Below are positions 22,661-40,984 of a DNA stretch of 64,000 nucleotides, piece by piece; the stretch's first letter is position 1, and every line of letters starts with the position of its first letter. The notes beneath the pieces are model-generated. The model had not been told where the DNA came from and did no database searches. It worked only from the letters and a program-made list of their open reading frames with translations. Source of the DNA: Candidatus Electrothrix communis (GTDB taxonomy: Bacteria; Desulfobacterota; Desulfobulbia; Desulfobulbales; Desulfobulbaceae); the NCBI GenBank assembly GCA_030644725.1, contig CP130629.1:1171572-1235571 (forward strand), in the 5' to 3' direction. Made by a program: the position numbers and the translations under genes.

Positions 22661-23266
22661 TTATGGATAGCGATAATGCCCTGTTATCAGGTAGCGAAAC
22701 AACATGTCTTCAAGTTTGGTACCTCGCCCGATATTATGGACAATCATAGGACGTTGGCCATCAGCAGATATTCTGTTCGTCACAATGCCGATATGGGGCA
22801 AATTGCCCGGTAACATCCAGGTTACCAGCTCGCCAGCCTTATACCCCTGCGGGTCCTTTGTCACGGGCAATTCCTTGCCATGACGCTTGAAAAAGACTTG
22901 GAGATTAGGAACACGTCGGTGATCGATATTTGTATCCGGTCGCTTCAACCCCCAACTTTTCGGATAGGCGGAAAAATTGGTCCGCATATCCTCATGCACC
23001 TCTTTTTGCAGATCAATACCGATCTTGCGGTACGAACGGATAACCACATCGGTACAGACACCTATATTGTCCGGCACATCACCGCCTGGATAGGCGATCT
23101 TGCGGTAGCTGCCGTTATAGGTAACCTGATGAGCAGTGCGTTCAAGCGCTGCTTGGACAAGCCCCGTGCTGATATCTCCGGCGGCCTTTTTTTGCGCATT
23201 CTGAGCAATGACCGGAGAAGAGCAGATGAGGAGAAAAAGAGCAAGAGAAAATGAGATAGTCTTCAT
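22661..23266 (-). CDS. DUF1287 family secreted protein
   Basis: Signal peptide at residues 1-21 (MKTISFSLALFLLIC..., cut near VIAQ), then the DUF1287 domain: YPGGDVPDNIGVCTDVVIRSYR, VHEDMRTNF, DTNIDHRRVPNL, GELVTWMLPGNLPHIGIV and IVHNIGRGTKLED. The conserved Cys, His and Asp pattern resembles NlpC/P60-like papain-fold hydrolases, so a cell-wall peptidase role is plausible but not shown. It is monocistronic and faces the wecE gene. Confidence 0.85.
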   Translation of the reverse strand: MKTISFSLALFLLICSSPVIAQNAQKKAAGDISTGLVQAALERTAHQVTYNGSYRKIAYPGGDVPDNIGVCTDVVIRSYRKIGIDLQKEVHEDMRTNFSAYPKSWGLKRPDTNIDHRRVPNLQVFFKRHGKELPVTKDPQGYKAGELVTWMLPGNLPHIGIVTNRISADGQRPMIVHNIGRGTKLEDMLFRYLITGHYRYP

Positions 23267-26486: not shown

Positions 26487-27320
26487 GTGAAAAATATCTT
26501 TTTCAAGGCAGAAATTATCAGCATGACCACAGCACTGCTTTTTATGCTGTGCGAAATATTTATTATTTTTTATGCCGGTTATGCTTCCGGAGCCAACATT
26601 GAAAAATTTTACTATTTTAATCCCGACTCCTCACAAAGCAACCTCGCCCGCCTGAAAAAGGAGATGGAACTTTTTCTGAACAAAAAAAATCTTATCGTCA
26701 TCTTTCAGCCCTTTGCCAAATACCATGATTTTCATCGTGAAATGCAGGATGGGCTTCCCGCATTTGTTTTTCTTCCTGATTGGTATTATCAACAAAACAA
26801 AACAAATTCCAAACTGAAACCTCTTCTGCAACCAATTCGCAAGGGCCAGGCAACATATCGTAAAGTTCTGTTAACGAAGCAGGACTCAACGCTCACCTTA
26901 CAGGGGCTAAGCAACAAACTTCTTGCCATGACAAACATGGGGAAAGATGCCCCTGATCTGTTGAATCGTCTTCTGTTTAATCAGTTTAAAATCAAATCAA
27001 ATGCATTAAACATTATCACCACTCCAAAGGATTCAGATGCCCTGTTCGCACTGGCTGTTGGGCAGGTGAATGCGGCCTTGGTTTCGAAAAATAATTTACA
27101 GATAATCGGAAAAATCAATCCTCGTATTTTACAAATTGTGCGCCCTTTGGCTGAATCACAGCCTATTCCGCTTCCTATACTTTGCACAGGCAATGGTAAG
27201 GTTCCTGATATAAATGTTATGAAGCTGAAAAAAATATTCTTGGAAGCTAAGGACTCCGATGATGCTGCTGATCTCATGGAGATGTTACAAATTGATGCAT
27301 GGCATAACTATGCGCGCTAA
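26487..27320 (+). CDS. PhnD/SsuA-like periplasmic solute-binding protein
   Basis: Exported protein: a hydrophobic segment at residues 12-35, then a periplasmic-binding fold of the PhnD/transferrin-like type. Recognisable pieces are QPFAKYHDF, a middle block LQGLSNKLLAMTNMGKD, and ALFALAVGQVNAALVS. Homologues bind phosphonates, thiamine derivatives or other small anions, or serve as sensor inputs. The start is GTG at 26487 with a poor ribosome site; ATG 26523 is an alternative. It overlaps the next gene by 11 bp. No permease or ATPase gene follows. Confidence 0.65.
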   Translation: MKNIFFKAEIISMTTALLFMLCEIFIIFYAGYASGANIEKFYYFNPDSSQSNLARLKKEMELFLNKKNLIVIFQPFAKYHDFHREMQDGLPAFVFLPDWYYQQNKTNSKLKPLLQPIRKGQATYRKVLLTKQDSTLTLQGLSNKLLAMTNMGKDAPDLLNRLLFNQFKIKSNALNIITTPKDSDALFALAVGQVNAALVSKNNLQIIGKINPRILQIVRPLAESQPIPLPILCTGNGKVPDINVMKLKKIFLEAKDSDDAADLMEMLQIDAWHNYAR

Positions 27321-28245
27321 TTTCTTTTTACTGCTCCTGGCGGTTTTATGCGGACAGTTGCCAGCATCACTGTACGCTGCCGACACTGATCGTCCGATAG
27401 CTCTTTTGCTCTCCGATAACGAATCTGTCTATCAAGGACCGATGAAGGCTTTTCTTGCTGAAATTGACCATTCTGTCCATGTTTTTAACCTGCAAGGTGA
27501 TATTAAAAAAGATCCTAACCTGAAACGTAAGCTGTTATCTATCCATCCTCAATTAATATTCGCCTTGGGTGCCAAAGCAGCCTTTGCAGCTAAGCTCTGG
27601 ACTCACGAGCATCAGGACATCCCTGTGATCTTCGCCTTGGTGTTAAATTGGAAACGATACAATCTCATGAATCAAAAAAACATGACGGGCATAGCGGGCG
27701 AGATAGCCCCAGGGACAAAATTCGGCAATATTTCAATTTTTTCACCAAATATTAAACGAATAGGGGTGATATATAGCTCCCATAGCCGTGAGGTGCTACA
27801 AAAGGCCAGAAAGGCAGCTGAAATTTTTAATATTAAGTTATATAGCAAGGAAATCACTCGCTCAAAAGATTTCCAACGCTCTTTCAAGAAGCTCGGAGAA
27901 AAAGTAGATGCCTTTCTCGTTCTGAATGATCCGGTGATTTATACTCTCGAAAATATGGATTGGCTCAAAATACGCTGTATCAAGGAAAAATTGCCCTGTA
28001 TCGGTCAATCAAAAAATATAGCTGAGCACGGCCTTGTGCTTTCTATTAACCCCGACGTAGCCGATATTGGCTCACAGGCTGCCTCTATGACGAAGAATAT
28101 TATCAACCGCCATCAACGTCCCGATTATATCGGGGTGATGGCTCCTCTAGGGACGCAGATTATCATTAACCGGACTACCGCTAAGCGCATAGGATTGACA
28201 CTGCACCAAGCCTCCTTGGACATGGCGACACAAGTATTTGATTGA
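27310..28245 (+). CDS. ABC-type substrate-binding protein (TrpX/DUF534-like)
   Basis: Periplasmic protein with signal peptide (MRANFFLLLLAVLC, cut near LYAAD) and the bilobed fold of the DUF534/TrpX family: IALLLSDNESVY, PQLIFALGAKAAFAA, IPVIFALVLN, NIKRIGVIYSS and VLSINPDVADIG. Family members bind aromatic or other hydrophobic compounds. The ATG at 27310 overlaps the previous gene; a longer frame from 27259 begins with sequence that reads the neighbour. Together with the PhnD-like protein it probably feeds, or senses, the compound brought in by the TonB receptor downstream. Confidence 0.75.
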   Translation: MRANFFLLLLAVLCGQLPASLYAADTDRPIALLLSDNESVYQGPMKAFLAEIDHSVHVFNLQGDIKKDPNLKRKLLSIHPQLIFALGAKAAFAAKLWTHEHQDIPVIFALVLNWKRYNLMNQKNMTGIAGEIAPGTKFGNISIFSPNIKRIGVIYSSHSREVLQKARKAAEIFNIKLYSKEITRSKDFQRSFKKLGEKVDAFLVLNDPVIYTLENMDWLKIRCIKEKLPCIGQSKNIAEHGLVLSINPDVADIGSQAASMTKNIINRHQRPDYIGVMAPLGTQIIINRTTAKRIGLTLHQASLDMATQVFD

Positions 28246-28272
28246 ATTTATATATTACGAGAAGGACGAAAC

Positions 28273-30462
28273 ATGTACAAAACAACTGCCGCAGTCGCTC
28301 TTTTGCTCCTTTTAAATTGTACGCAAGGAAGAGCCGAAGCAGAGAACGAGAATTTCACGACAAGTGAAGAGGATATTCAGAAATTTGAAGAGATGTTCGG
28401 GCAGGGCCCCCAGGAAGAGGATGTCTACCGCACTGATCGGTTACTGCTCACTGCTACCGGCAGTCTGAAGCCCGTTCACCTAGCACCCTCGGTGGCATCG
28501 GTCATCACGGCGGAGGATATCGAGAAACTCGGTGCCACCACCCTTGATGAGGTGCTGGAAACTGTGCCCGGCCTCCATGTGACACCGTCTTATGTCCACC
28601 TTGATCCTATCTATTCCATACGCGGCATCCATACTAGCCTTAATCCGCAAGTCTTACTCCTAATGAACGGTATCCCTTTTACCAAGCCGTACAACGGTAC
28701 CCGTCCATCGGGCTTTCGCCTGCCGGTATCCATGATATCGCGTATCGAAGTGGTGCGGGGACCGGGTTCTGCCCTCTACGGAGCCGATGCCTTTGCCGGG
28801 ACTATTAACATTATTACTAAGGATCGTTTTGAAGTGGAGGGTATGCATACCGGTATGCGTCTTGCCTCTGTTGATGGTATGGATGTCTGGGGACAGCACG
28901 GCGGGGAGTACAAGGGCTGGGATGTCGCTATAGGAATAGAATACTGGCGAGGCGGCAGTGACAATAAACGGATTATTAACGCTGACCTTCAGACAAAATT
29001 GGATCAAATCTTCGGCACCGATGCCTCCTTGGCTCCGGGTCCATTGCATACGGATTTTGAAAATTACAATCTTATGGCGAATTTCAGCCGTAAAAACTGG
29101 ACTGTCCGTCTTTGGGGCTGGTTCCTGAACGACTATCAGGGCGGAACGGGCAGTGCCGGGGCCTTGGGCCCGGAAACCAAGGTGAACGCCGATCAAATTC
29201 TCAGCGACATAATCTGGCATGATGATGAGTTGATCAACGACGTTGACCTCACCGTACAATTGAGCTATCTGTACCGTAAGGATGACGTCCTGTACCAGCT
29301 TCTGCCGTCCGGCTCAGCTGTTGCCCTTGGTATGGACGGGAATATCTTCACCTCGCCGACAATAGGGGTGACCACGTTCACCGACGGTGTTTTCGGCGAA
29401 CCGATTCTTACCGACCAACAGCTGACATTTGACCTTATCACTAAATATGAAGGATGGAATCAGCACAGCTGGCGTATCGGCATAGGGGGGAAAGTACAGG
29501 ATGAGAATACCGAAGAATACAAAAATTTCGGGCCAGGCGTTCTTGGCGACAGCGGGATAGCCAACAGCACTGACGGCACCTTGGTAGAAGTCACAGATAC
29601 GGAAGGTATTTTTATGTCCGACCAAAATCGTACGGTTCTCTATACCTCTCTACAGGACGAGTGGAACTTTGCCAAGAGCTGGGAACTCACAGCCGGAGTG
29701 CGTTACGATCATTACAGTGATTTCGGAGAAACCGTTAATCCGCGCATCGCTCTGGTGTGGGAAACACGCTACGACCTGACAAGCAAGCTCATGTACGGTC
29801 ATGCCTTCCGACCGCCGTCTTTCGCTGAAAGTTACATTAAAAATAATCCAATTTTTTTGGGTAATTCGGATCTTGAACCTGAAACCATCGACACCTATGA
29901 ACTTGCCTTTGACTACAGACCCGCGCATTCTTTGCGAGCTGTTTTAGGCGTCTTTGCCTATGAGATAGAAGGGCTCATTGATTACGTTGCCGATCCTTCC
30001 CCGGCCACCACCAACACAGCTCAAAACCGCCTCAACCAAAAGGGACACGGTTTCGAAATCGAGCTGGAGTGGGAGGCGACACCTTCCTTAAAATTGAGCA
30101 GTAATTTTGCCTTTCAATGTTCAAAGAACAAAGATACGGATGCCGTTGTTGCCGATGCACCGGGAATACAGTTTTATTTAAACGGGAGTTGGAACTTTAT
30201 GCCGGATTGGTATCTCAATGCCCAGTATTTTTGGATCGGTGATCGCCAAAGAGCAGAAGATGACCTTCGGAAGGAAATTAAAGACAACAGTATTACGAAT
30301 ATGACATTGCGAAGAAAAAATATCACGCAACATGTTGACCTGACTTTTTCTGTCCGCAATATTTTCAATGAAGATATTCGTGAACCGACTACATCCGACA
30401 TTCCCAATGACATCCCGATGGTGAGCAGGGCAATATATACAGAGTTGATATATCATTTCTAA
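28273..30462 (+). CDS. TonB-dependent outer-membrane receptor
   Basis: 729 residues with a signal peptide (to about residue 21), an acidic N-terminal stretch, and the plug domain (LAPSVASVITAEDIEKLGA, LDEVLETVPGLHV, IEVVRGPGSALYGADAFAG, NIITKD). A barrel follows with the C-terminal box motifs (YGHAFRPPSF, NLEPETIDTYEL-type) and a terminal Phe. It takes up a scarce ligand such as a metallophore, cobalamin or sugar using TonB energy. AGAAGGA lies before the ATG. It sits between two binding proteins and a set of unusual enzymes, which suggests a dedicated ligand. Confidence 0.9.
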   Translation: MYKTTAAVALLLLLNCTQGRAEAENENFTTSEEDIQKFEEMFGQGPQEEDVYRTDRLLLTATGSLKPVHLAPSVASVITAEDIEKLGATTLDEVLETVPGLHVTPSYVHLDPIYSIRGIHTSLNPQVLLLMNGIPFTKPYNGTRPSGFRLPVSMISRIEVVRGPGSALYGADAFAGTINIITKDRFEVEGMHTGMRLASVDGMDVWGQHGGEYKGWDVAIGIEYWRGGSDNKRIINADLQTKLDQIFGTDASLAPGPLHTDFENYNLMANFSRKNWTVRLWGWFLNDYQGGTGSAGALGPETKVNADQILSDIIWHDDELINDVDLTVQLSYLYRKDDVLYQLLPSGSAVALGMDGNIFTSPTIGVTTFTDGVFGEPILTDQQLTFDLITKYEGWNQHSWRIGIGGKVQDENTEEYKNFGPGVLGDSGIANSTDGTLVEVTDTEGIFMSDQNRTVLYTSLQDEWNFAKSWELTAGVRYDHYSDFGETVNPRIALVWETRYDLTSKLMYGHAFRPPSFAESYIKNNPIFLGNSDLEPETIDTYELAFDYRPAHSLRAVLGVFAYEIEGLIDYVADPSPATTNTAQNRLNQKGHGFEIELEWEATPSLKLSSNFAFQCSKNKDTDAVVADAPGIQFYLNGSWNFMPDWYLNAQYFWIGDRQRAEDDLRKEIKDNSITNMTLRRKNITQHVDLTFSVRNIFNEDIREPTTSDIPNDIPMVSRAIYTELIYHF

Positions 30463-30542
30463 CCGTCTTGTTACCGCTCAGCCTAAAATGATACATTTCC
30501 AGGACAAGATACGTCACATTAAGTGGAAAAAGAGCGAGATAT

Positions 30543-31370
30543 ATGAGCGAACAGAAACTTTACGTACGAAAAAGAAATGAGCGGTTCACCAACCGAACCG
30601 TCACCCGGATTTGGCAGGAAGAACCACTGCCGGAGAATCCCTATCTGGCCAGAAAATGCCGTTGTCATGGCTATGATATTTTGGAACTGGCAAAGAAACG
30701 TTCTTTTGTTGATGTGCTGTTTCTCCTTTTTCAAGGAGAGCTGCCGGACCAAAACCAATCCGAATTGTTTGAAACGTTGATGATCGCTCTGATCAATCCC
30801 GGCCCACGACATCCGGCAACTAGGGCATCCATGAATGCCGCAGTGGGCAAAACCAATCCGGCCCATATTCTTCCTGTCGGGTTGGCTGTGTTAAGCGGAG
30901 CATACCTCGGCGGAGAAGAGGTCTCGGCGGCCATGCGATTTTTACGAAAAAATTGCAAAAAAGATGCAGCAGATTTTGCCGATGAGTTACTATCGCTTTC
31001 TCGACCTGATAAAGGTGATTGGCATATTGCACCGGGTTTCGGCAGCCGGTTCGGCGGTATTGATCCCATACCGCAACAGCTTGCTGAACTTTTGGATGGA
31101 TTTCCCGCAGCCGGTGAGGCTGTCAAATGGGGACAAGAGTTTGTTGTAGCAATTAGCCTGCAAGGGATGAGTTGGCTTGATACCGGTCTTGCCGCTGCTG
31201 TGTTTTGTGATCTTGGGTTTCATCCCCGGTCCGGGGCTGGACTTTTTCAAATTCTCCGTGCACCCGGCATTCTGGCACATGGTCTTGAGTTAGCAAATAA
31301 ACCTGTAACAGCCATGCCGTTTTTAGACGAGGAACATTATGTCATTGCAAAACAAGCCCGTAAAAAATGA
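30543..31370 (+). CDS. Citrate-synthase-like protein 1, catalytic His residues apparently lost
   Basis: 275 residues with the citrate synthase fold but only about two thirds of the usual length. GYDILELAKKRSFVDVLFLL and FQGELP match the first helices, and the helical PGILAHGLEL near the end also fits. At the places of the catalytic triad I read YLGG (121-124) instead of HGGA, GFGSRFGG (165-172) instead of GFGHRVY, while the Asp position is kept in LDTG (212-215). It may thus be non-catalytic on its own. It overlaps the next citrate-synthase-like gene by 32 bp, so a heterodimer is likely. CoA chemistry related to citrate, methylcitrate or citryl-CoA is the family baseline. Confidence 0.7.
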   Translation: MSEQKLYVRKRNERFTNRTVTRIWQEEPLPENPYLARKCRCHGYDILELAKKRSFVDVLFLLFQGELPDQNQSELFETLMIALINPGPRHPATRASMNAAVGKTNPAHILPVGLAVLSGAYLGGEEVSAAMRFLRKNCKKDAADFADELLSLSRPDKGDWHIAPGFGSRFGGIDPIPQQLAELLDGFPAAGEAVKWGQEFVVAISLQGMSWLDTGLAAAVFCDLGFHPRSGAGLFQILRAPGILAHGLELANKPVTAMPFLDEEHYVIAKQARKK

Positions 31371-32178
31371 TACTGCTTTCTGGGACAGTCGTCGTGGTTT
31401 TATCCACACCCGAAAGGGCGGTTGGGTAATCAACGAGGCCATCCATAATCATGGTTATTCTATGATGGACGACTTGGTGGGAAAGGCGTCGTTTTTCCAG
31501 GTATTGTTTCTCAATGTGATCGGTCACCTGCCGGAACGACGCCTGACTGACTGGCTGGAAGCCTATTATATATGCCTGAGTTGGCCCGATCCCCGCATCT
31601 GGTGTAACCAAGTCGGCAGCTTAGCAGGTAGCATGCAGGCATCTCCTCTTGCCACAGTCGGAGCCGGAATACTGGCTTCGGATTCCACTATGTATGGGCC
31701 CGGTACGACTAAGGCCGCAACGGAATTTATTACAACAGCACTTATAAAAAAAAAGAATGGCATGTCGGCTGAAGATATTGTCACAGACAAACAGAGAAAT
31801 CCGTCTTCTCCTCCCAAAATCGCAGGGTATATGCGGCCCATAGCCAGCGGAGACGAGAGAATTCCGGCGATGGAGCGGGTTACAAAAAATCTCGGCTTCG
31901 AGATCGGAGAACATCTTGCTTTGGCGTATGAGATTGAGGAAGTGCTGATTAAAAAATTTAATGAGCGGATGAATATAGGCGGCTATCGTTGCGCTTTTCT
32001 GCTCGACCAAGGGCTTACCCCGATAGAAATCTATCGTTTATTGAGTCCTGTAGTGCATGCAGGGGTTCTTGCCTGTTATACGGAAACGAGTGACTCACCG
32101 CCTGAATCCTTTTTCCCTCTCCACTGTGGAGATATTGATTACCAAGGAAAAGCACCAAGATCGATTCCTATAAAATAG
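31339..32178 (+). CDS. Citrate-synthase-like protein 2, degenerate active site
   Basis: 279 residues, partner of the preceding gene. Family features are NHGYSMMDDLVGKASFFQVLFL, IGHLPERRL, and the C-terminal AGVLACYTE helix. The catalytic positions read MYGPG (118-122, in place of HGGA), GYMRPIASGDER (163-174, in place of GFGHR...DPR), and NIGG (212-215, in place of NVDF), so all three triad residues seem changed. Small polar and Cys residues remain that could serve a different reaction. The overlap of 32 bp with gene 1 indicates coupled translation. The product is unknown. Confidence 0.7.
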   Translation: MSLQNKPVKNDTAFWDSRRGFIHTRKGGWVINEAIHNHGYSMMDDLVGKASFFQVLFLNVIGHLPERRLTDWLEAYYICLSWPDPRIWCNQVGSLAGSMQASPLATVGAGILASDSTMYGPGTTKAATEFITTALIKKKNGMSAEDIVTDKQRNPSSPPKIAGYMRPIASGDERIPAMERVTKNLGFEIGEHLALAYEIEEVLIKKFNERMNIGGYRCAFLLDQGLTPIEIYRLLSPVVHAGVLACYTETSDSPPESFFPLHCGDIDYQGKAPRSIPIK

Positions 32179-32196
32179 GACAAAACGATTAAGACG

Positions 32197-32919
32197 ATGT
32201 CAAAAACAGCTCTGATAACAGGCGGAAACTCCGGAATCGGTTACGCAACAGCCAGTTTGTTAAAGAGAAAGGGATACTCTGTTGTCATATCCGGTCGTCA
32301 CAAAGGCAAGGTAAAAAGGGCAGCCACTGAGATGGGGGTTGAATATATAATTGCCGATATGGCTGAGCTTGATGATATTAAGCACTTGGCCGCTCCGTTT
32401 CAAAATGAAGGCTTGAATATCTTGGTAAACAATGCCGCCATAGCGCTGTTCATTCCCCTTAGCGAAATATCGTCATCAGATTATTTGTTATTTTTTAATA
32501 CCAATATTCGAGGCCCATTGGAACTGATACGCGAGCTGTTGCCTGCTTTAGAAAAAAGACAGGGGAGCATCACCAATATTTCTTCGATAGCTGTTAATAA
32601 CGGTCTGATCAACGGTTCACTTTACGCCGCAACGAAAGGAGCACTGGAAGCCACCACCCGAAGCCTTGCCTTGGAACTCGCCCCAAAAAAAATTCGAGTC
32701 AATGCTGTTTCACCCGGTGCCATTGATACGCCATTGGCAGGGAAATCCGGGCGCAGTAAGGAGGAACTTGATGCACGCAAAGCAATCCTGGAACAGATCA
32801 TTCCCCTGCAACGTTATGGCAAAGCCGAAGAAGTTGCTCAAGTGGTGTGGGCACAGCTTGAAGCAACCTATGTGACGGGCAGTATCTGGGTTGTTGACGG
32901 AGGAGCCGATATCTTATGA
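32197..32919 (+). CDS. Short-chain dehydrogenase/reductase, FabG-like
   Basis: Classical SDR of 240 residues: NAD(P)-binding GGNSGIG at 9-15, NNAA, catalytic Ser in ISSIAV, YAATK with Tyr and Lys, and the terminal VTGSIWVVDGGADI. Most likely reduces a ketone or oxidises a secondary alcohol of the pathway intermediate. It follows the citrate-synthase-like gene by 18 bases and precedes the condensation-fold gene by 89 bases, in the same direction. Confidence 0.9.
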   Translation: MSKTALITGGNSGIGYATASLLKRKGYSVVISGRHKGKVKRAATEMGVEYIIADMAELDDIKHLAAPFQNEGLNILVNNAAIALFIPLSEISSSDYLLFFNTNIRGPLELIRELLPALEKRQGSITNISSIAVNNGLINGSLYAATKGALEATTRSLALELAPKKIRVNAVSPGAIDTPLAGKSGRSKEELDARKAILEQIIPLQRYGKAEEVAQVVWAQLEATYVTGSIWVVDGGADIL

Positions 32920-33008
32920 CGGATGCTGACGTTAAAAATAATTTATATTTGTAATTATTTAATTTAATTCGTTTTCTATGTGAAAAATTTATCCGTACAT
33001 GGGCAGTC

Positions 33009-34478
33009 ATGAAGAAAAGGGCTGAAAGAGTTATGTCCCGCTCAGCTGATCAAGATTGTTTACAGGCACTTCCTCAGCAATATAAAACTGTTAAAGGAGA
33101 CAAGGCTCTCTCCGCCAACCGTCATATTTGTGACCTGCAACTCCATTGCGTTATAACTTTCAGCGGCCGACTTGATCAGAGGCGGTTGTCAAAAGCGGTT
33201 CGTCTGTCCTTGGATGCCGAGCCGGTGCTGGGCTGCCGGTTTTTTGAAAACAGATGGCGTCAGTTTTGGCGGCGGCGGGAGGATCTTGACGATCTTGAGC
33301 TCTGCCGGTTGACTGAAACTGATTGTCCGGAAAAGGCTCTCGTCAACTATATGGTTTCTCCCTATGATCCATACAACGACCCTATGGTTCAAACCCATAT
33401 TTTCCGATCCGAATCAGATACCCTCTGTATAAAAGCAAATCATATAGTTTCCGATGCCGGTGGGTTAAAGGAATATGTCCGACTTCTTGCCTTTATTTAC
33501 CGAAATCTTGAGAGAGATCCCGAATTCAAACCGCAAATAAATCTTTCAGGAAGGCGCTCGTATGAACAGGTTACGGAGTTTCTCTGCCTGCCTGACAAAC
33601 TGAAAATTCTGCGTTTGAGCCTAATGAACTGGTTCGACAACCTTTACCCAAGGAAAAATTGGGCATTCCCTAGCCTTCCGTCGCGCTCTACGAGTGATCG
33701 AACTTTTCTCATCCGCCGAATTTCTTCTGATCGGTTCAGACAGATCAAGAAATATGCCGCTCGTCATGGTTTTACCATAAACGATATTCTCACGGCGTGT
33801 CTCTTTCGCGGACTTTATAAAATAATTCAGCCGGATTTTAATACGCCGCTCCGGCTTGGTATGACAGTCAGTTTGCGTCGTTATCTCCCTGATCGACAGG
33901 GAGAGGCGATTACCAATCTTGCTAACCTATTCTTGCTTAACATAGGTTGTCATGTCGGCGATACTCTGAAAGAGACAATATCTTTAGTTCATAATGAAAT
34001 GGCGATTCATAAACGAAATTTTTTAGGCTTTAATATTACCAGAAAATCAATATTCAACCTAAAATGGTTGCCAATTTCGTTGGCCCGAGGATTTCACAAT
34101 TACGTTTTAAAGTTGAATTTTTTTTTCGGCCCGAAAGATATCCCCCCATGGTTCACCAATATGGGGCTTCTCAAACGAAAAAATATAGAATTCGGTAAGA
34201 TTGAAACAACGGATGCATTTATGACAGCACCGATAATATACGCACCTTTACTTCTCATCGGTGCAACGGGGTTTGCCGATACCGTTACAATAACTGTTGG
34301 TTTCTGTAGAACCTCCCATGATGAAAAAAAGTTAATTGATCTTTTAGATGCCGTTGAAAAAGAAATAGGTGCGGTTTCTAACTTACTTTCAAAAAAAAGT
34401 GAGTCATACAATTGCGTTTCACCGGATGCGAGTGCAGCGTGTACTCCGGTCTCATTGTCCTCTGTCAGGTCAAATTGA
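33009..34478 (+). CDS. Condensation-domain/acyltransferase-fold protein
   Basis: 489-residue stand-alone member of the CoA-dependent acyltransferase superfamily (NRPS condensation, PapA5 and WS/DGAT relatives). The active-site motif is HIVSDAGG at residues 145-152, fitting HxxxD with a following Gly. The second half has TINDILTACLFRGLYKI and the structural segment GFADTVTITVGFC. Such enzymes join an acyl-CoA or carrier-bound acyl group to an alcohol or amine. No carrier protein or adenylation domain is in the window, so a CoA thioester donor is more likely. The start ATG at 33009 is uncertain; 33033 is an alternative. Confidence 0.75.
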   Translation: MKKRAERVMSRSADQDCLQALPQQYKTVKGDKALSANRHICDLQLHCVITFSGRLDQRRLSKAVRLSLDAEPVLGCRFFENRWRQFWRRREDLDDLELCRLTETDCPEKALVNYMVSPYDPYNDPMVQTHIFRSESDTLCIKANHIVSDAGGLKEYVRLLAFIYRNLERDPEFKPQINLSGRRSYEQVTEFLCLPDKLKILRLSLMNWFDNLYPRKNWAFPSLPSRSTSDRTFLIRRISSDRFRQIKKYAARHGFTINDILTACLFRGLYKIIQPDFNTPLRLGMTVSLRRYLPDRQGEAITNLANLFLLNIGCHVGDTLKETISLVHNEMAIHKRNFLGFNITRKSIFNLKWLPISLARGFHNYVLKLNFFFGPKDIPPWFTNMGLLKRKNIEFGKIETTDAFMTAPIIYAPLLLIGATGFADTVTITVGFCRTSHDEKKLIDLLDAVEKEIGAVSNLLSKKSESYNCVSPDASAACTPVSLSSVRSN

Positions 34479-34622
34479 GATTAGTGTAATTCGGGCTTGG
34501 TTCTAAGTTCGGCCAATATTGTACTGCCAACGCACAACTCAATCCTCTTGGAGCTTTTGATTTTTGGAGAAAGTGACCTGTGGGAGAAAAAAATATATTT
34601 TTAGAAAAATAAGATAGATGAA

Positions 34623-34685
34623 AGCTGCTTGATTTTGTATTAGGCTTTTTCCAACCAAAGAACAAGCCAACAAAAACAAGCAGCT
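34623..34685. repeat. Nested hairpin before a transposase stub
   Basis: AGCTGCTTG (34623-34631) pairs with CAAGCAGCT (34677-34685), enclosing a second stem formed by GGCTT and AAGCC. It abuts the ATG of the transposase fragment and is probably the left end of that insertion sequence. Confidence 0.5.
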
Positions 34686-34890
34686 ATGGCCACACAATAT
34701 CAAGTTTCTCCAGATAAAGTAAGAGGAAATAATCACAACCGGCTTCATTCCTCGTTAAAGATATATGAATTTGAAGAGGCAAGAGGTCGGCAAAGTCAAC
34801 GGCAGTTTGCCCAAAAGGAAAAGATTCCAAGAACTACGCTTCAATATTGGCTCAAACGTAAAGACAATATTGATGCCTCTCCGGCTCTCA
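34686..34890 (+). pseudogene. Transposase N-terminal fragment
   Basis: About 68 codons resembling the DNA-binding start of a transposase: MATQYQVSPDK, then the helix-turn-helix-like SQRQFAQKEKIPRTTLQYWL and RKDNIDASP. The family pattern (IPRTTLQ.WL followed by DASP) is familiar from transposases of Desulfobacterota and cyanobacteria, though I cannot name the IS family. Coding sequence is cut at 34890, where a 132-bp MITE begins; codons after that are MITE sequence. Confidence 0.5.
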
Positions 34891-35022
34891 GGCACTGGGC
34901 TCTCACCGTTACTACTTTTAAAACATGCTTTAATATCAAGATGTTACAAAGTGCACTTTGACGGCTAAGTGCTTGACATTAAAGGGTCTATTTTTCTAGC
35001 GGAATACTAGGAGCCCAGTGCC
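34891..35022. repeat. 132-bp MITE-like element, copy A
   Basis: Bounded by perfect 12-bp inverted repeats, GGCACTGGGCTC and GAGCCCAGTGCC. A same-length, gap-free, inverted relative lies at 63252-63383, with about four fifths of the bases identical by eye and most differences transitions. No coding capacity. It ends 31 bases before the start codon of the ThDP enzyme gene and may therefore affect its expression. Flanking target duplications are not evident. Confidence 0.7.
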
Positions 35023-35053
35023 GAACCAAGCCCAAATACCGATTGGAGAACGC

Positions 35054-36760
35054 ATGAATACCGCTGAGATGATCATCGAAGTATTAGGCCGAACCGGAGT
35101 AAAATACATGTTCGGTGTACCAGGATCGGCCATTGAAGACCTCAATACCGCACTCTGCAATAATACATACGGCATCCTTCCCATTGTTGCCAAACATGAG
35201 GAGGGTGCTGCTTTCATGGCTGACGGCTATGCCCGTGTCTCCGGCAGGCTCGGTGTCTGTTACGCCACTGCTGGCCCCGGAGCTTCCAATCTCATCACCG
35301 GCCTGATATCATCATATGCCGACCAGATCCCGGTGCTGTCCCTGACCGGTCAAGTGGCCACATCACTCTTCGGCAAAGGGGCCTTTCAGGAATCAGGATC
35401 TGAACAGATTGATCTCACAAGAATATTCAGCAGCTTTACAAAATACAGCAGAATACTGATCTCTGAGATCCGCGCGCAATATATGCTGCAGAAGGCCGTT
35501 CGTCTCGCCTTGAGCAATCCCGGCGGCCCGGTCCATATAAACATGCCTACCGACATTATGAAAAGAGCTGTGGAACTCCATGAACCCTTCATGCCGACAG
35601 GCACCGAAGAAACACACCTTTTCGACGTGGAACGAGTGGACAAGGTAGCAGAACTCCTTGCCGGTGCCCGACGCCCAGCTATTATCGCCGGTTGGGGAGT
35701 ATACCTTTCGCGGGCCATGCCGGAACTTCTGCAATTGGCCGAACAGCTGCAGATTCCTGTTGCGACCTCGCCGAAGGCCAAAGGAGTATTCCCGGAATCT
35801 CACGAATTGTCATTAGGTGTCCTGGGGTTTGCTGGCTCTCCGTTGGCTCAGAAATATCTGATAGATAATAACGTTGATATCCTTCTTGCAGTGGGCACCA
35901 GTTTCTGCGAGATGACGACCAACGGCTGGGATGAGCATCTCCAACCCACCGAACATTTAATTCATCTGGATGTTGACAACGAAAAGATAGGGAAAATTTA
36001 TCCCGCATCACACTCCATGTCGGGTGACCCGAAAATAAATCTTAGAATGATTGCTCAGGCAATAGAAGGAACTTCGTCAAAAAAAAACCGCAGAGCACAC
36101 AGCAACAATCACCTGCAACAGCTACGTCAACGCCAAACGAAAAATGAAACGTTCACATCACGGAACGATCTTTATCATCCTGCACAGTTAACGCTCGATA
36201 TTCAGAGATTTTTTCCTAAAAACAGCATGTTTTTTTTAGATATCGGCACCTCCATGGCTTGGGCTATCCGGTACATGACCGTTGACCACCCCGGTTCTTT
36301 CTTTGTTTCTCTGGGTTACGGCTCCATGGGGTATGCAGTTGCCGCGCCTGTAGGGGCTCATTTGGCAGCACCTGATCGTCCGGTGGTGGCTATGGTCGGG
36401 GACGGCTCCTTTCTGATGAACGGTTTCGAGGTGGCCACAGCGGTCAACTACAAAATTCCGGTAATCTGGGTGGTATTGAACAATGCCATGCTCGGCATGA
36501 TACATCACGGTCGACGCCTCGTGAAAGAAACCGTTCCAGATGTGATGAGTACTTGTTTTCAACGGGTCGATTATGTCAAAATTGCCGAAGGACTGGGGGC
36601 GCGGGGTATTCATATAGACGGAAAGGAACCTCTGACCTCCTCATTGGTTGAGGATATTCTGACAGCACAGGTGCCCACAGTCCTTGATGTGTGGATCGAC
36701 GACCAAGTTGTGCCGCCTATCCACAGTCGCATTAAAACAATGGATACCCATTTTTCGTAA
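35054..36760 (+). CDS. Thiamine diphosphate-dependent enzyme (acetolactate synthase/decarboxylase superfamily)
   Basis: 568 residues with the three-domain ThDP layout. An N-terminal PYR domain has the catalytic Glu in KHEEGAAFMADGYARV and the QESGSEQID loop. A middle domain (about 185-330) follows. The C-terminal PP domain has the ThDP/Mg motif GDGSFLMNG...NN near residue 450. Relatives make acetolactate, decarboxylate benzoylformate or join two-carbon units; the substrate is not predictable. The ATG at 35054 (GGAG upstream) is preferred, because an earlier GTG lies inside the MITE end. It probably belonged with the citrate-synthase-like/SDR/condensation genes before insertions separated it. 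Confidence 0.85.
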   Translation: MNTAEMIIEVLGRTGVKYMFGVPGSAIEDLNTALCNNTYGILPIVAKHEEGAAFMADGYARVSGRLGVCYATAGPGASNLITGLISSYADQIPVLSLTGQVATSLFGKGAFQESGSEQIDLTRIFSSFTKYSRILISEIRAQYMLQKAVRLALSNPGGPVHINMPTDIMKRAVELHEPFMPTGTEETHLFDVERVDKVAELLAGARRPAIIAGWGVYLSRAMPELLQLAEQLQIPVATSPKAKGVFPESHELSLGVLGFAGSPLAQKYLIDNNVDILLAVGTSFCEMTTNGWDEHLQPTEHLIHLDVDNEKIGKIYPASHSMSGDPKINLRMIAQAIEGTSSKKNRRAHSNNHLQQLRQRQTKNETFTSRNDLYHPAQLTLDIQRFFPKNSMFFLDIGTSMAWAIRYMTVDHPGSFFVSLGYGSMGYAVAAPVGAHLAAPDRPVVAMVGDGSFLMNGFEVATAVNYKIPVIWVVLNNAMLGMIHHGRRLVKETVPDVMSTCFQRVDYVKIAEGLGARGIHIDGKEPLTSSLVEDILTAQVPTVLDVWIDDQVVPPIHSRIKTMDTHFS

Positions 36761-36863: not shown

Positions 36864-37643
36864 CTACCTCGACTCTCCAGCAAGCGAACGAATAAACGGT
36901 CCCACAGCCTCCGGCCCTTCCTGATCAACCAATTTAATGGTTGCCGTACCGATAACCGCCATATCCGCCTTGCCCTCAAGCAGAGCCACATCCTCACGAC
37001 TGCTGATCCCGAAGCCCACAGCCAGCGGAAGATCCGTGGCCCGGCGGCAACGCCGGAGATATTCAGCAAGGCCGTCGTCCATAGCTGTCTGTTGTCCGGT
37101 CACTCCTTTCCGGGCCACGCAGTAGACAAATCCGCTCCCCTGCCCTGCCACCTCAACCATCCGCTCATCCGTAGAAGTCGGAGTAAAAAACATAATGGCA
37201 GCTAAGTCCTTTTCCTTGGCTAAATGGAGATATGCCTTGCCCTCTTCCGGCGGTAAATCAGGAAGAATAAAGCCTTTCATCCCAATATCTGCTGCCCGCT
37301 CAATAAAGGCGTTCAAGCCGTAGCGGAAAACGATATTATAATAGGTCATAAAGAGAAAATTGACCTGGGGGAACTCCCGTACCATTTCTTTGGCAAAGGC
37401 AAAACTGTCTTCAACCCGAATTCCGGAAGCCAGGGCATCCTGATTGGCCTTGAGAATCACCGGTCCATCAGCCATAGGCTCGGAAAAGGGGATCTGGAGT
37501 TCAATGCAATCCACCCCGTTGTCCGCCATTTGCCGGATGACCTCGCGGTTGACCTCTAAAGAAGGATACCCGAGAACAAGATGAGTCATCAAAAGGATGG
37601 GCTTTTTCTCAAGTCGTTGTTGCAAGTCCTGTTGTATATTCAT
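36864..37643 (-). CDS. trpA: Tryptophan synthase alpha subunit
   Basis: TIM-barrel enzyme that cleaves indole-3-glycerol phosphate to indole. 259 residues with the active-site Glu in VDCIELQIPFSEPMADGPVI, the catalytic Asp in LPDLPPEE, and the phosphate-binding VGFGISSREDV plus ADMAVIGTA. The ATG at 37643 follows GGACAGGAC; a longer frame from 37673 is less likely. trpB and other trp genes are absent here, so the gene is either detached from its operon or this is a divergent alpha-like copy. Key residues look intact. Confidence 0.9.
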   Translation of the reverse strand: MNIQQDLQQRLEKKPILLMTHLVLGYPSLEVNREVIRQMADNGVDCIELQIPFSEPMADGPVILKANQDALASGIRVEDSFAFAKEMVREFPQVNFLFMTYYNIVFRYGLNAFIERAADIGMKGFILPDLPPEEGKAYLHLAKEKDLAAIMFFTPTSTDERMVEVAGQGSGFVYCVARKGVTGQQTAMDDGLAEYLRRCRRATDLPLAVGFGISSREDVALLEGKADMAVIGTATIKLVDQEGPEAVGPFIRSLAGESR

Positions 37644-37701
37644 TGTCCTGTCCGTTTTATATTTTTCAAACAAAATTAAAGTATTCGGAGTGTATTTGTA
37701 G

Positions 37702-37742: not shown

Positions 37743-40208
37743 TCATCGCGCAGCATAAATAAAAGGCCTTCGAAACATACCGGCAAAATGATGCCGACTG
37801 TCGACCCGTAGGGCAAGGATATTTTTACCCTGTTTGAGCTTTCCGGTCAAATCAACATCCCATTCAAAACGATAATCGTTATTCCACCAAAGCTTATCCT
37901 GTGTACGATGGGCGACTTCTTCGCCATTAAGATAGAGCCAACATTCGTTAAATAGACCAGGAAACCGGAGATGCAAATTCTTGTCTGCTTGTTCTACCGG
38001 AATATCTACCTCGGTGCGATACCAGGCGTATCCAATATAACTTTGCCGATCCGGATTGCGGATGCCCTGGGCCTGCATGTAGAGGTCTGTTCGCAGCAGC
38101 TCCCATTCGCTGACCGGATAATCTTTGAGCAAGTCCAAGGTATAGGTACCACGATTTGCCTCCCAGAAGGTCAGAGCCACTGGCCCGGCAGCAAAATTTT
38201 CTTTCACCCCGATATTCCTTGGATCACGGCGAAAGGCCCATTCCAGGGGCAGTTTGACCACCAACTCGCCCTTATCACCGTTGATCCATTGCTCCAGCTC
38301 CCGGTATTGCCGAACTTCGCCCGGCCACCAAGCATAGCCCTTATCCTCCACCTTCATCCCCTTATAGGTGGTAAAGGTCCCGTTCATAGCAGTCAATTTC
38401 TCCCGGATGACTAAAGCCTTTTCACCGAGCTTCACTGCCTTTTTATAATCAAGATCTGTTCCGGCCGCCTTCACCGTCTCCAGATACAGCGTTGTTATGT
38501 CGCAGCTCATGCGGGTAAAGGCGATCCTGTCTACATAGAGCTGCTCATTCCGGGAAAGAGATTTCTTTTTCTGTAACGGAGCAAGGAGTTCTTCCGCCTC
38601 CTTCATCTTCGCCTTCATGACCTTGAGCACGCCGGGCGTATAGATGGCCGGAGCAAGAAAATATTCATGCTCTGTGACGATGGTATTCTCCCATGCCTGA
38701 AAGATGGCCTCCCAGTACGCCTGCATAGGCTTTGCCGCAGGCCCATAAAATTTTTCGTAAAATTCTGCCAGCTCAGCCTGGATATCCGTGTCCGGATTCC
38801 ACATCAGCTGACCGCGCAGATAAAGATTGAAAAAGGTGGTGGCAATGGCATTGCGGCTTTCCGTATTAACACCCAGAATTCCGGCCTTGCGATAATGCTG
38901 AACATCCTGGATAAAGGCTTGATGGGAGGGATTAGGGAGATCACGCCAGACCAACATCCCCTGATCGTAATCATAAATAGCGAGACGCCCATCCATAACC
39001 TCGGCCCATTTATAGATAAAATCCTTATATTCCTGCCGGGGCGGTGATTGGAGGGAATCCATGCCGTGGATAGGATCAATATCAATAGGGGCCAGCTCAC
39101 AGAAAAGGGATTTTTCCGCCTTCATTTCCCGCACAGGCGGGATGGTCATATTGGTGTAGGCCAGAAAACCTATTTTTGCCGAGCTGTCCGGATATTTTTT
39201 CTGGAGAATGCCCGCCACCTTATTATAGAGTTCCAAGAAGGGGTCGGTCACGCTCCAACGGAGATAATATTTATCCCATTGCAGCTGCATCAGCTTTTTA
39301 TCTCCCGGATAGGTAGACTCGTAAACTCCATCCTCCATACTCAGAGAAAAGCTCTCACCGCTAGCATATTTTTCCTCCACCTTCTTCACAATATGCTCTG
39401 CTGTTTCCGGTGCTGTCAGAGGAATGCGAAAAACGTTTTCGTTCAACTCTCGGACATATTGCCCCAGAGCATGTCCTGTCGGAGGAAAATCGCCCTTACC
39501 AAGGGTCATAAAATTACGTCGTTGAAACTCCTCCTTCCCTGCATGGTCACCAAGCCAAGAAATCCAATAGGTCCGTATCTCAAAGGGAGGAGCATAGACA
39601 TAATCCAGTTCACCGAGAGTCAGCCGGGGCTGGGCAGGAATGCTCTCGCCGAATTCGGTGGGCAGGTACCATCGGCACCCCCAGCGGCGCAAAAGCTCAA
39701 TGACGGCATAATAATGGCTGAGATCATTACTGCCGGCAAGGTACACCCGATTATCTTTACGCCGGAGGACAATGGCGTCGCTGCGCAAAAGGCCCTTTAC
39801 CGTGACCGGTTTCTTCAAAGCAGCGACAAGGGATTTATCCGCCTTGAGGGCCTCTTGACCAATAATAATGAGCGGTTGCTTTCCCTTGAGGGCTGCGGCA
39901 ATCGCCTCCGGGGTATTGGCAATTGTCGGAGCAGCACCGGACATCATTGCAATGTACTTTGCCAAATCCTCAGCAGCCAGCTGTTCATTGGGGCCTGCCT
40001 TCTCAGCAATCACGATCACAGCAGAGGTTTTACCTTTATCGGCAATGACCAGCTCCTGTATATCTTGTATAGCTTGAGCTTCCTGCACGTTGCTCTTAAC
40101 AGTCTTTTGTTCTGCCCAACCTCTGACTGATACAGCAGCCATGCTCAGGAGGATGGTGGCAAAAAACAGCACCATCCTTTTTGTTCCTGTTATCTTTCCT
40201 GGATTCAT
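37743..40208 (-). CDS. DUF4838 / GH20-like secreted protein with C-terminal beta-sandwich
   Basis: Large exported protein (821 residues) with a signal peptide (MVLFFATILLSMAAVSVRGWA). An N-terminal alpha-glucuronidase/GH20b-like domain spans about 50-190. A DUF4838 TIM-barrel-like region follows (about 190-570; WGCRWYLPTEFGE, GHALGQYV, GVNTESRNAIA). The C-terminal jelly roll resembles GH2 sugar-binding domains (WYRTEVDIP, LHLRFPGLFNECWLYLNGEEV). It probably degrades or remodels a polysaccharide in the periplasm or outside. The ATG at 40208 lies 5 bases after the upstream stop. It ends the run of surface-glycan genes. Confidence 0.75.
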   Translation of the reverse strand: MNPGKITGTKRMVLFFATILLSMAAVSVRGWAEQKTVKSNVQEAQAIQDIQELVIADKGKTSAVIVIAEKAGPNEQLAAEDLAKYIAMMSGAAPTIANTPEAIAAALKGKQPLIIIGQEALKADKSLVAALKKPVTVKGLLRSDAIVLRRKDNRVYLAGSNDLSHYYAVIELLRRWGCRWYLPTEFGESIPAQPRLTLGELDYVYAPPFEIRTYWISWLGDHAGKEEFQRRNFMTLGKGDFPPTGHALGQYVRELNENVFRIPLTAPETAEHIVKKVEEKYASGESFSLSMEDGVYESTYPGDKKLMQLQWDKYYLRWSVTDPFLELYNKVAGILQKKYPDSSAKIGFLAYTNMTIPPVREMKAEKSLFCELAPIDIDPIHGMDSLQSPPRQEYKDFIYKWAEVMDGRLAIYDYDQGMLVWRDLPNPSHQAFIQDVQHYRKAGILGVNTESRNAIATTFFNLYLRGQLMWNPDTDIQAELAEFYEKFYGPAAKPMQAYWEAIFQAWENTIVTEHEYFLAPAIYTPGVLKVMKAKMKEAEELLAPLQKKKSLSRNEQLYVDRIAFTRMSCDITTLYLETVKAAGTDLDYKKAVKLGEKALVIREKLTAMNGTFTTYKGMKVEDKGYAWWPGEVRQYRELEQWINGDKGELVVKLPLEWAFRRDPRNIGVKENFAAGPVALTFWEANRGTYTLDLLKDYPVSEWELLRTDLYMQAQGIRNPDRQSYIGYAWYRTEVDIPVEQADKNLHLRFPGLFNECWLYLNGEEVAHRTQDKLWWNNDYRFEWDVDLTGKLKQGKNILALRVDSRHHFAGMFRRPFIYAAR

Positions 40209-40213
40209 ACTGA

Positions 40214-40984
40214 TCACCGGTCCAAAGCCCTTGTAATAAGATACACCCAATACCCGAGATACTCTTTGATCCCCTTGGTTGTCATTTCCAGGACTCCGGC
40301 CTGGGGCAGCCAGTCAAGAAAAGATGGGACACGCTCAACCAATTGATAATCCGTCGCTGCCGGAAGAACCGATACCCCAATTCTTGAAAAAAGAGCCTCA
40401 GCTCGGCGCATATGGGTAGCAGAGGTCACCAGCAGAATCTTTTTGACTCCCTGTTGATGTAAAATTTGTTGGCTGTACATCGCGTTTTGCTGCGTATTTC
40501 TGCTCTTGGTCTCCAGTAATATGCTGTCAGCCGGTATATCCATGAGTTGCAAAATATCTGCCATATCCTCAGCTTCAGATCGGTATCCCGGCTCATTACC
40601 ACCGGATAAAATCAGAAGAGGAGCCTTCCCGGCCTTGAAAAGTCGGGCAGCATGAATAATTCGATCTGCACCGCCCCCGAGATCGGTCAGGCCAGTTCCG
40701 GGAACTCTCCCCCGTGTAACGCCGCCCAAAAGAACAATCGCATCCGCAGTCGGTATTTCTTCGAGAGAAAGCGGTGGATAACGACGTTCCAGGGAGTGCA
40801 GAACAAATTCGGCAGCTACCTGGGTCGAGCTGGCCCAAAGCAAAGCGACCGATATGAGCATCAGCAATCCGGCACCCCGTTTCCTGCGCATCCAAAGCAG
40901 AAGGAATGCAACAAGGAAAAAGATGATAGCCATGCCCAAAGGATAAACAAATAAGGGCAACAGCTTAGTGAGTGCAAAGCTCAT
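40214..40984 (-). CDS. YdcF/ElyC family membrane protein (DUF218), longer paralogue
   Basis: Two N-terminal transmembrane helices, then a DUF218 domain: DAIVLLGGVTRGR, HAARLFKAGKAPLLILSGG, RNTQQNAMYSQQIL, ILLVTSATHMRRAEALFSR. Relatives SanA and ElyC affect envelope integrity and lipid-carrier-linked glycan synthesis in enterobacteria. 256 residues, usual for ElyC. The gene overlaps the shorter paralogue upstream by 20 bp. The context in a polysaccharide operon fits a role in undecaprenyl-phosphate handling, which is inference. Confidence 0.85.
   Translation of the reverse strand: MSFALTKLLPLFVYPLGMAIIFFLVAFLLLWMRRKRGAGLLMLISVALLWASSTQVAAEFVLHSLERRYPPLSLEEIPTADAIVLLGGVTRGRVPGTGLTDLGGGADRIIHAARLFKAGKAPLLILSGGNEPGYRSEAEDMADILQLMDIPADSILLETKSRNTQQNAMYSQQILHQQGVKKILLVTSATHMRRAEALFSRIGVSVLPAATDYQLVERVPSFLDWLPQAGVLEMTTKGIKEYLGYWVYLITRALDR

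Follow-up and report, generated by a model that had tools for sequence, protein, structure and literature searches.

Why should a cable bacterium encode two solute-binding proteins (SBPs), a TonB-dependent receptor, two citrate-synthase-like proteins, a short-chain dehydrogenase/reductase (SDR), an acyltransferase and a thiamine diphosphate (ThDP) enzyme side by side? The eight genes lie at positions 26,487 to 36,760 of the window, a 64,000-nucleotide stretch of the genome of Candidatus Electrothrix communis (GenBank assembly GCA_030644725.1, contig CP130629.1, positions 1,171,572 to 1,235,571). A sequence-only reading of the window had proposed a small-molecule pathway with its own uptake genes. 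A pathway of this kind with its own outer-membrane receptor has good support, both from neighbourhoods conserved across several classes and from the anabolic tailoring genes of relatives. The gene neighbourhoods and enzyme families further indicate that, on balance, the locus probably serves to make a single small molecule, to take it back up and to sense it. All eight genes were confirmed on one strand, as had been claimed:

26487..27320, + strand: PhnD-type periplasmic binding protein (PF12974; Pfam 70.1 bits, cut-off 27)
27259..28245, + strand: PF04392 (TrpX-like) periplasmic binding protein (Pfam 96.5 bits)
28273..30462, + strand: TonB-dependent outer-membrane receptor (Plug and barrel; Pfam)
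30543..31370, + strand: CitA, protein of predicted citryl-coenzyme A (CoA) lyase fold without the GxGHR His and NVDG Asp (PF00285 39.1 bits, cut-off 27)
31339..32178, + strand: CitB, diverged partner of CitA with the same predicted fold, without that His and Asp (profile, model, residues)
32197..32919, + strand: SDR-family oxidoreductase (tailoring, variable; Pfam)
33009..34478, + strand: condensation-fold acyltransferase (tailoring, variable; PF00668 35.1 bits, cut-off 30.6)
34490..34890, no strand: insertion scar, a repeat with two further copies of about 400 bp in the genome (repeat matches; weak IS66 TnpA match)
35018..36760, + strand: ThDP enzyme (phmmer E = 2.1e-132 to 8x3x and 1.2e-91 to 8x3z)

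Conservation of the gene set

Clear orthologues of CitA, with 57–100% identity, were found in 25 of the 257 genomes of the class Desulfobulbia, the genome of the window included. This count is based on E = 3e-98 or better; the raw tally of 77 genomes takes in short matches to ordinary citrate synthases. The carriers fall in 10 numbered families of the class, and the distribution is patchy. CitB was detected in the same 25 genomes and, as a piece at a contig end, in one further genome (G239). Among the 24 class neighbourhoods that were fetched, the TonB receptor gene lies at most two genes from CitA in 23, and the remaining contig begins about 550 bp before CitA. The ThDP gene follows in 20 of the 24, once only in pieces; in the other four, no more than about 1 kb of contig follows CitB.

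A scan of named genome records yielded 44 CitA loci, of which 39 contained both CitA and CitB. Nineteen of these 39 repeated loci of the class search, and 20 were new. The new loci came from Desulfuromonadales-like and gammaproteobacterial records, and their hosts include Gallionellaceae, Candidatus Tenderia, Thiogranum, Malonomonas rubra and Geoalkalibacter. For a tally of neighbourhoods (n = 38), five loci with beta-oxidation genes were set aside, and one locus (L100) was dropped because the open reading frame (ORF) caller had merged its CitA; tblastn found CitA of this locus together with TonB, CitB, ThDP, both SBPs and kinases. Near CitA, the tally gave CitB in 38 loci, TonB in 37, ThDP in 31, and an SBP and a sensor-type protein in 28 each, where the last two labels denote similarity clusters of which some members were checked with Pfam. 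The sole locus without TonB is cut at the contig start, and in all seven without ThDP the contig stops about 4 kb or less away on one side. When only loci flanked by 9.9 kb or more on each side of CitA were considered, CitB, TonB, ThDP and an SBP of the PF04392 cluster were near CitA in all 14 loci, and a sensor-type protein in 13; the exception is the Electrothrix locus. Many Desulfobulbia loci also have a PhnD-type SBP beside the PF04392 protein.

Searches with other members of the set led to similar neighbourhoods. The ThDP enzyme (E = 1e-160) was present in 26 of the 257 class genomes, 20 with CitA and six without (G013, G015, G077, G080, G081 and G239). Five genomes had CitA and no listed ThDP enzyme: tblastn revealed the enzyme in G244 and G245, G235 has it in pieces, and the loci of G088 and G252 stop at a contig end. 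When 395 genomes of the phylum were searched with the ThDP enzyme, five cases were found. One of them (G404), found through ThDP alone, encodes ThDP, TonB, a PF04392 protein and two kinases together with CitA (34% identity) and CitB (29%). A search of 390 genomes with a CitB profile found seven, and the complete genome G569 has the same gene order as the Malonomonas locus.

The sequence-only reading had proposed to look for the same gene order elsewhere, and held that genes scattered in related genomes, or a TonB gene never beside the enzyme genes, would speak against it. Neither was found in the neighbourhood searches; the set is kept together in Desulfobulbia, Desulfuromonadales-like and gammaproteobacterial loci. 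The grouping of these genes is not due to chance.

Enzymes of the proposed pathway

Among solved structures, the ThDP enzyme was closest to BbmA (8x3x) and CsmA (8x3z), and the next kind of match was acetolactate synthase (E = 2.1e-72). The diverged ThDP enzyme of Malonomonas was likewise closest to BbmA and CsmA. The ThDP-activating Glu and the GDG motif, which we take to be marks of ThDP enzymes, occur in all 32 ThDP sequences that were aligned. NCBIfam offered no usable name, as the best 25 of 56 matches were all under the cut-off. Residue 484 of BbmA, which is mutated according to the PDB title of 8xod, was counted onto a Leu with a Gly one position before it, and nothing was drawn from this.

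BbmA and CsmA are described as CybE-type synthases in excerpts of PMC13307353 and PMC12395478; we read the 'BpmA' of the latter as the BbmA of the PDB. In the cyanobacterin and carbazole pathways, according to excerpts of PMC12395478, PMC8777810 and PMC7466098, a CybE-type enzyme joins two alpha-keto acids, after which a beta-ketoacyl-acyl carrier protein (ACP) synthase III (KAS III)-type enzyme couples the product to an acyl thioester. CybF is annotated as 3-oxoacyl-ACP synthase. The locus resembles the furanolide pathways (cyb, mac; excerpts of PMC12395478, PMC13288894 and PMC8777810) in its CybE-type ThDP synthase followed by a putative acyl-thioester enzyme. One relative (G015), moreover, has a KAS III gene beside its ThDP gene, in a locus with a diverged TonB receptor (31%), an SBP and kinases, an arrangement that parallels CybE plus CybF. 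Unlike the furanolide pathways, a pair of predicted citryl-CoA-lyase fold replaces CybF, the locus contains TonB, SBPs and, in relatives, sensors, and no ammonia lyase is among the families of the window block. Pfam recognised no CybF-type KAS III among the genes of the window's locus. The block also differs from the carbazole pathways with CqsB3/NzsH and CqsB1/NzsJ (excerpts of PMC7466098), in that it has CitA and CitB instead and no CqsB2-type cyclase, ACP or prenyltransferase among its families.

CitA and CitB had been described as half-size citrate synthases. They are indeed two related citrate-synthase-like proteins, but their type and size are those of citryl-CoA lyase. CitA matched the profile of the lyase 6hxp (E = 3.4e-28), and its predicted model aligned with 6hxp over 230 residues (Z = 20.7, root-mean-square deviation (rmsd) 3.3). 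For CitB, the Pfam search gave no match; its profile matched 6hxp (E = 3.2e-14), and its model, with a mean predicted local distance difference test (pLDDT) score of only 73, aligned with 6hxo over 249 residues (Z = 20.9, rmsd 4.0). As judged from these models, both proteins have the citrate-synthase/citryl-CoA-lyase fold. They share fold and size with citryl-CoA lyase (6hxp) and the citryl-CoA lyase module of ATP-citrate lyase, but differ from these in being two diverged genes side by side in a specialised-metabolite context, and in their active-site residues.

The His of GxGHR and the Asp of NVDG, which we take to be catalytic in the lyase, are absent throughout. The His occurred in none of 49 distinct CitA sequences (one gap) and none of 45 distinct CitB sequences, its position being occupied by Ser in 44 of the 49 CitA and by Arg in all 45 CitB. 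The Asp was likewise found in 0 of 49 CitA (one gap) and 0 of 45 CitB (two gaps); PDB titles of related enzymes name D1026A and D541A mutants. Ordinary citrate-synthase-like chemistry is therefore not supported for either protein. A role as ordinary citrate synthase was also rejected, the genome carrying a full-length one elsewhere. Because the His of AHGGA is aligned in 41 of 49 CitA sequences (with different residues following it; 1 of 45 in CitB), some of the old lyase site may survive in CitA. The 35 columns that do not vary among 14 diverse CitB sequences argue that this protein is not decaying. If the proposed pathway is correct, specialised metabolism has recruited a citryl-CoA-lyase fold that lacks the catalytic residues usual for it.

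In four gammaproteobacterial loci (L073:9983-10819, L072, L074 and L077), CitA occurs without CitB beside genes for an acyl-CoA dehydrogenase, a thiolase, a FadJ-like protein, an acyl-CoA ligase and a thioesterase; Pfam was run on L073, and the neighbours in the other loci were assigned by similarity. A fifth such locus (L102) is a fragment with CitA split into two frames. The four CitA-only sequences form one clade among the Desulfobulbia-type CitA, a weakly supported placement. This setting in fatty-acid beta-oxidation operons is consistent with an acyl-CoA ligand.

The SDR and the condensation-fold protein belong to a variable cassette. In relatives, the cassette contains a sulfotransferase, an adenylylsulfate (APS) kinase, an O-methyltransferase, one of two SDR types, a condensation-fold protein, or nothing recognised; the first three of these are anabolic tailoring functions. 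Seven other genomes of the genus were compared with the window. The sister genome G080 has an SDR 77% identical to that of the window, and its cassette encodes an ABM-domain protein, a sulfotransferase, the SDR and a condensation-fold protein. In G077, the cassette consists of a B12-radical-SAM protein and another sulfotransferase, and that of G081 probably has the same content, to judge from a sulfotransferase match and the spacing. Neither CitA nor ThDP was found in G078, G079 and G082. PhnD varies most among the genus genomes, with 61% identity to G077 and G081 versus 79% to G080 and 76% to G076, which is a hint only. The condensation-fold protein contains the HxxxD motif (as HIVSD), and its best PDB match was weak (TlmII, E = 0.0003). 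A record of Candidatus E. aarhusensis shows the gene order of the window, but its condensation-fold gene (L033:5396-6699; L059:13648-14951) is split over two frames, by a frameshift or a sequencing error. This swapping of enzyme cassettes between sister genomes, the CybE-type ThDP relatives and the sensor-type proteins at other loci were added by the comparison to what had been read from the window.

Sensing, the proposed pathway and its rivals

The Pfam scan found no N-terminal signalling domain in the TonB receptor. Neighbouring genes sampled with Pfam at other loci encode histidine kinases with cache domains, hybrid kinases, and response-regulator or membrane-type GGDEF-EAL proteins. An ATP-binding cassette (ABC) ATPase was seen in only two of 39 loci, each time about 9 kb from CitA; this screen used a crude Walker-plus-signature motif, and many loci are cut by contig ends. 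From the sampled sensors nearby and the rarity of the ATPase, we infer that the binding proteins are sensor partners rather than transporter parts. A quorum-sensing role, with a density-dependent response of the producer to its own product, would be hypothetical; at the level of gene content, SBPs lie near kinases and GGDEF-EAL proteins. They bring to mind LuxP/LuxQ-type sensing, where presumably a periplasmic binding protein is likewise encoded near a membrane sensor; unlike LuxP/LuxQ, the binding proteins here are of other families, a TonB receptor is present, and sensing is a prediction. Elsewhere in the genome of the window, a histidine kinase and a hybrid kinase lie side by side (L115:9288-13199), with 45% and 34% identity to kinases of related loci, and this pair is a possible partner of the locus.

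The pathway that we propose starts from the ThDP enzyme. CitA and CitB would act together, as a predicted complex, to couple an intermediate to an acyl-CoA, and would thus have the role of KAS III-type enzymes (CybF, CqsB1) in furanolide and carbazole biosynthesis. The SDR and the acyltransferase would then decorate the product in a species-specific way, as the sulfotransferase, APS kinase and O-methyltransferase would do in relatives. After its predicted export, the product would re-enter through the dedicated TonB receptor, be bound by the PF04392 and PhnD proteins, and act as a signal, since the SBP genes of most relatives have genes for histidine kinases or GGDEF-EAL proteins nearby. A self-made signal is the best fit for a receptor, SBPs and sensors that accompany a biosynthetic cassette of changing content. 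We can go further only tentatively: CitA/CitB may be a new two-protein acyl-CoA condensing enzyme that replaces KAS III after a CybE-type synthase, and the products may be undescribed self-made signals, imported by TonB and read by SBPs in cable bacteria, iron oxidisers and other sediment bacteria, wired to phosphorelays and cyclic di-GMP (c-di-GMP), with the decoration swapped as private dialects.

If the proposal holds, cable bacteria and the cultured Malonomonas rubra have in common a concrete and testable candidate locus for a chemical signal or a metallophore, and the locus points to a route of TonB receptor, binding protein and kinase or c-di-GMP by which a bacterium senses a compound of its own making. 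Private and shared signals could then be tested directly by means of the variable cassette. A literature search over titles and the starts of abstracts, which left most subscription papers outside its coverage, returned no description of this locus among the matches listed.

Several results weigh against a self-made signal from one common pathway. Catalysis by CitA and CitB is hypothetical because two key lyase residues are absent, and the proteins could be scaffolds. CitA and CitB were not found in G077, G080 and G081, where PhnD, TrpX, TonB and ThDP are kept. The ThDP enzymes of the gammaproteobacterial and Desulfuromonadales-like loci are only 32–35% identical to that of the window, which makes one chemistry for all loci uncertain. 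G294 has a CitA-CitB pair near a kinase-like protein and neither TonB nor ThDP on that stretch; its ThDP enzyme, 44% identical, is encoded on a different contig, where the contig end truncates it and nothing else of the set occurs. The parallel with KAS III comes from one case in the 257 class genomes (E = 1e-60), G015, with its TonB receptor only 31% identical. No exporter was recognised among the annotated neighbours, which do not comprise every neighbouring ORF. Finally, no relative of the histidine kinase pair was found in the stretches fetched for five Electrothrix loci, and there was no SBP match beside the kinase pair itself.

The main rival is a metallophore with ligand sensing, in which an alpha-hydroxy acid or acylated derivative made by the ThDP enzyme chelates a metal, TonB imports the complex, and SBPs and kinases report metal or ligand status. 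We consider it somewhat unlikely. Alpha-hydroxy acids chelate metals, and the hosts Gallionella, Sideroxyarcus and Geoalkalibacter belong to metal-cycling lineages. The TonB receptor beside biosynthesis genes also recalls siderophore loci, in which, we assume, biosynthesis and receptor genes likewise stand together. Such loci differ from the block, however, which contains no nonribosomal peptide synthetase, no synthetase of the NRPS-independent siderophore (NIS) type and no other known siderophore-synthetase family; the motif screen found almost no ABC ATPase nearby, and the sampled sensors are kinases and GGDEF-EAL proteins. Cable bacteria have several TonB-dependent transporters unrelated to known nickel receptors according to excerpts of PMC11247825, which agrees with a metallophore, but these excerpts of a paper on nickel do not mention the locus, and a nickel link was rejected. 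A signal seems likelier than a metallophore.

In a catabolic locus, TonB would import an outside compound, the SBP and kinases would sense it, and CitA/CitB and ThDP would cleave it in lyase directions. The lyase origin of CitA and CitB, the one lyase His kept in most CitA, the occurrence of CitA alone in beta-oxidation operons, and modules of receptor, SBP and kinase that also suit nutrient sensing agree with this. It is nevertheless quite unlikely, because the tailoring is anabolic: sulfotransferase, APS kinase, O-methyltransferase and acyltransferase occupy the same slot as costly steps of synthesis. Moreover, the closest ThDP relatives are synthases, and neither the GxGHR His nor the NVDG Asp is present. 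A locus made up of two neighbouring but independent units, an uptake and sensing module and an enzyme cluster unrelated to it, could explain why the cassette varies, why CitA and CitB may be absent while the receptor stays, and why G294 has the pair apart from TonB. Against this, TonB, CitA, CitB and ThDP stay together across classes, even through rearrangements that invert ThDP or place it before TonB. The gene distances are also correlated (r = 0.48–0.87 in ten pairs, a level reached by none of 2000 permutations for any pair), for which shared ancestry alone can suffice. We regard separate units as very unlikely.

Layout of the locus and neighbouring genes

The genome of the window is a single contig of 4.85 Mb. 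The two SBP genes overlap, as do CitA and CitB; the other distances are 27 bp from the PF04392 gene to TonB, 80 bp from TonB to CitA, 18 bp from CitB to the SDR gene, 89 bp from there to the condensation-fold gene, and 539 bp from the latter to the ThDP gene. The short gaps noticed earlier, from overlaps to about 90 bp, thus measured up to 89 bp before the scar. The scar itself could be verified: about 400 bp of the 539-bp gap is present at two other sites in the genome, with 95% and 94% identity. Its first 30 bp or so are repeated more widely, with at least 20 matches listed, the scar itself among them, and some of these copies form close inverted pairs. A 91-aa ORF within the scar resembles IS66 TnpA, with a score under the cut-off of that model. 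The repeat suggests part of a mobile element family.

On the opposite strand, trpA (36864-37673), the sole PF00290 match in the genome, lies beside the locus. It does not adjoin the locus in G077, and we regard it as a mere neighbour; a link with tryptophan was rejected. A large DUF4838/GH2-like protein is encoded at 37743-40250 (− strand), and this gene, with neighbours including trpA, also adjoins the locus of G080. A few kb upstream of the locus, a 201-aa protein is encoded at 22661-23266 (− strand). In two gammaproteobacterial loci, its relatives (L073:3-659, and L074 from position 60) are found immediately upstream of the beta-oxidation genes with CitA.

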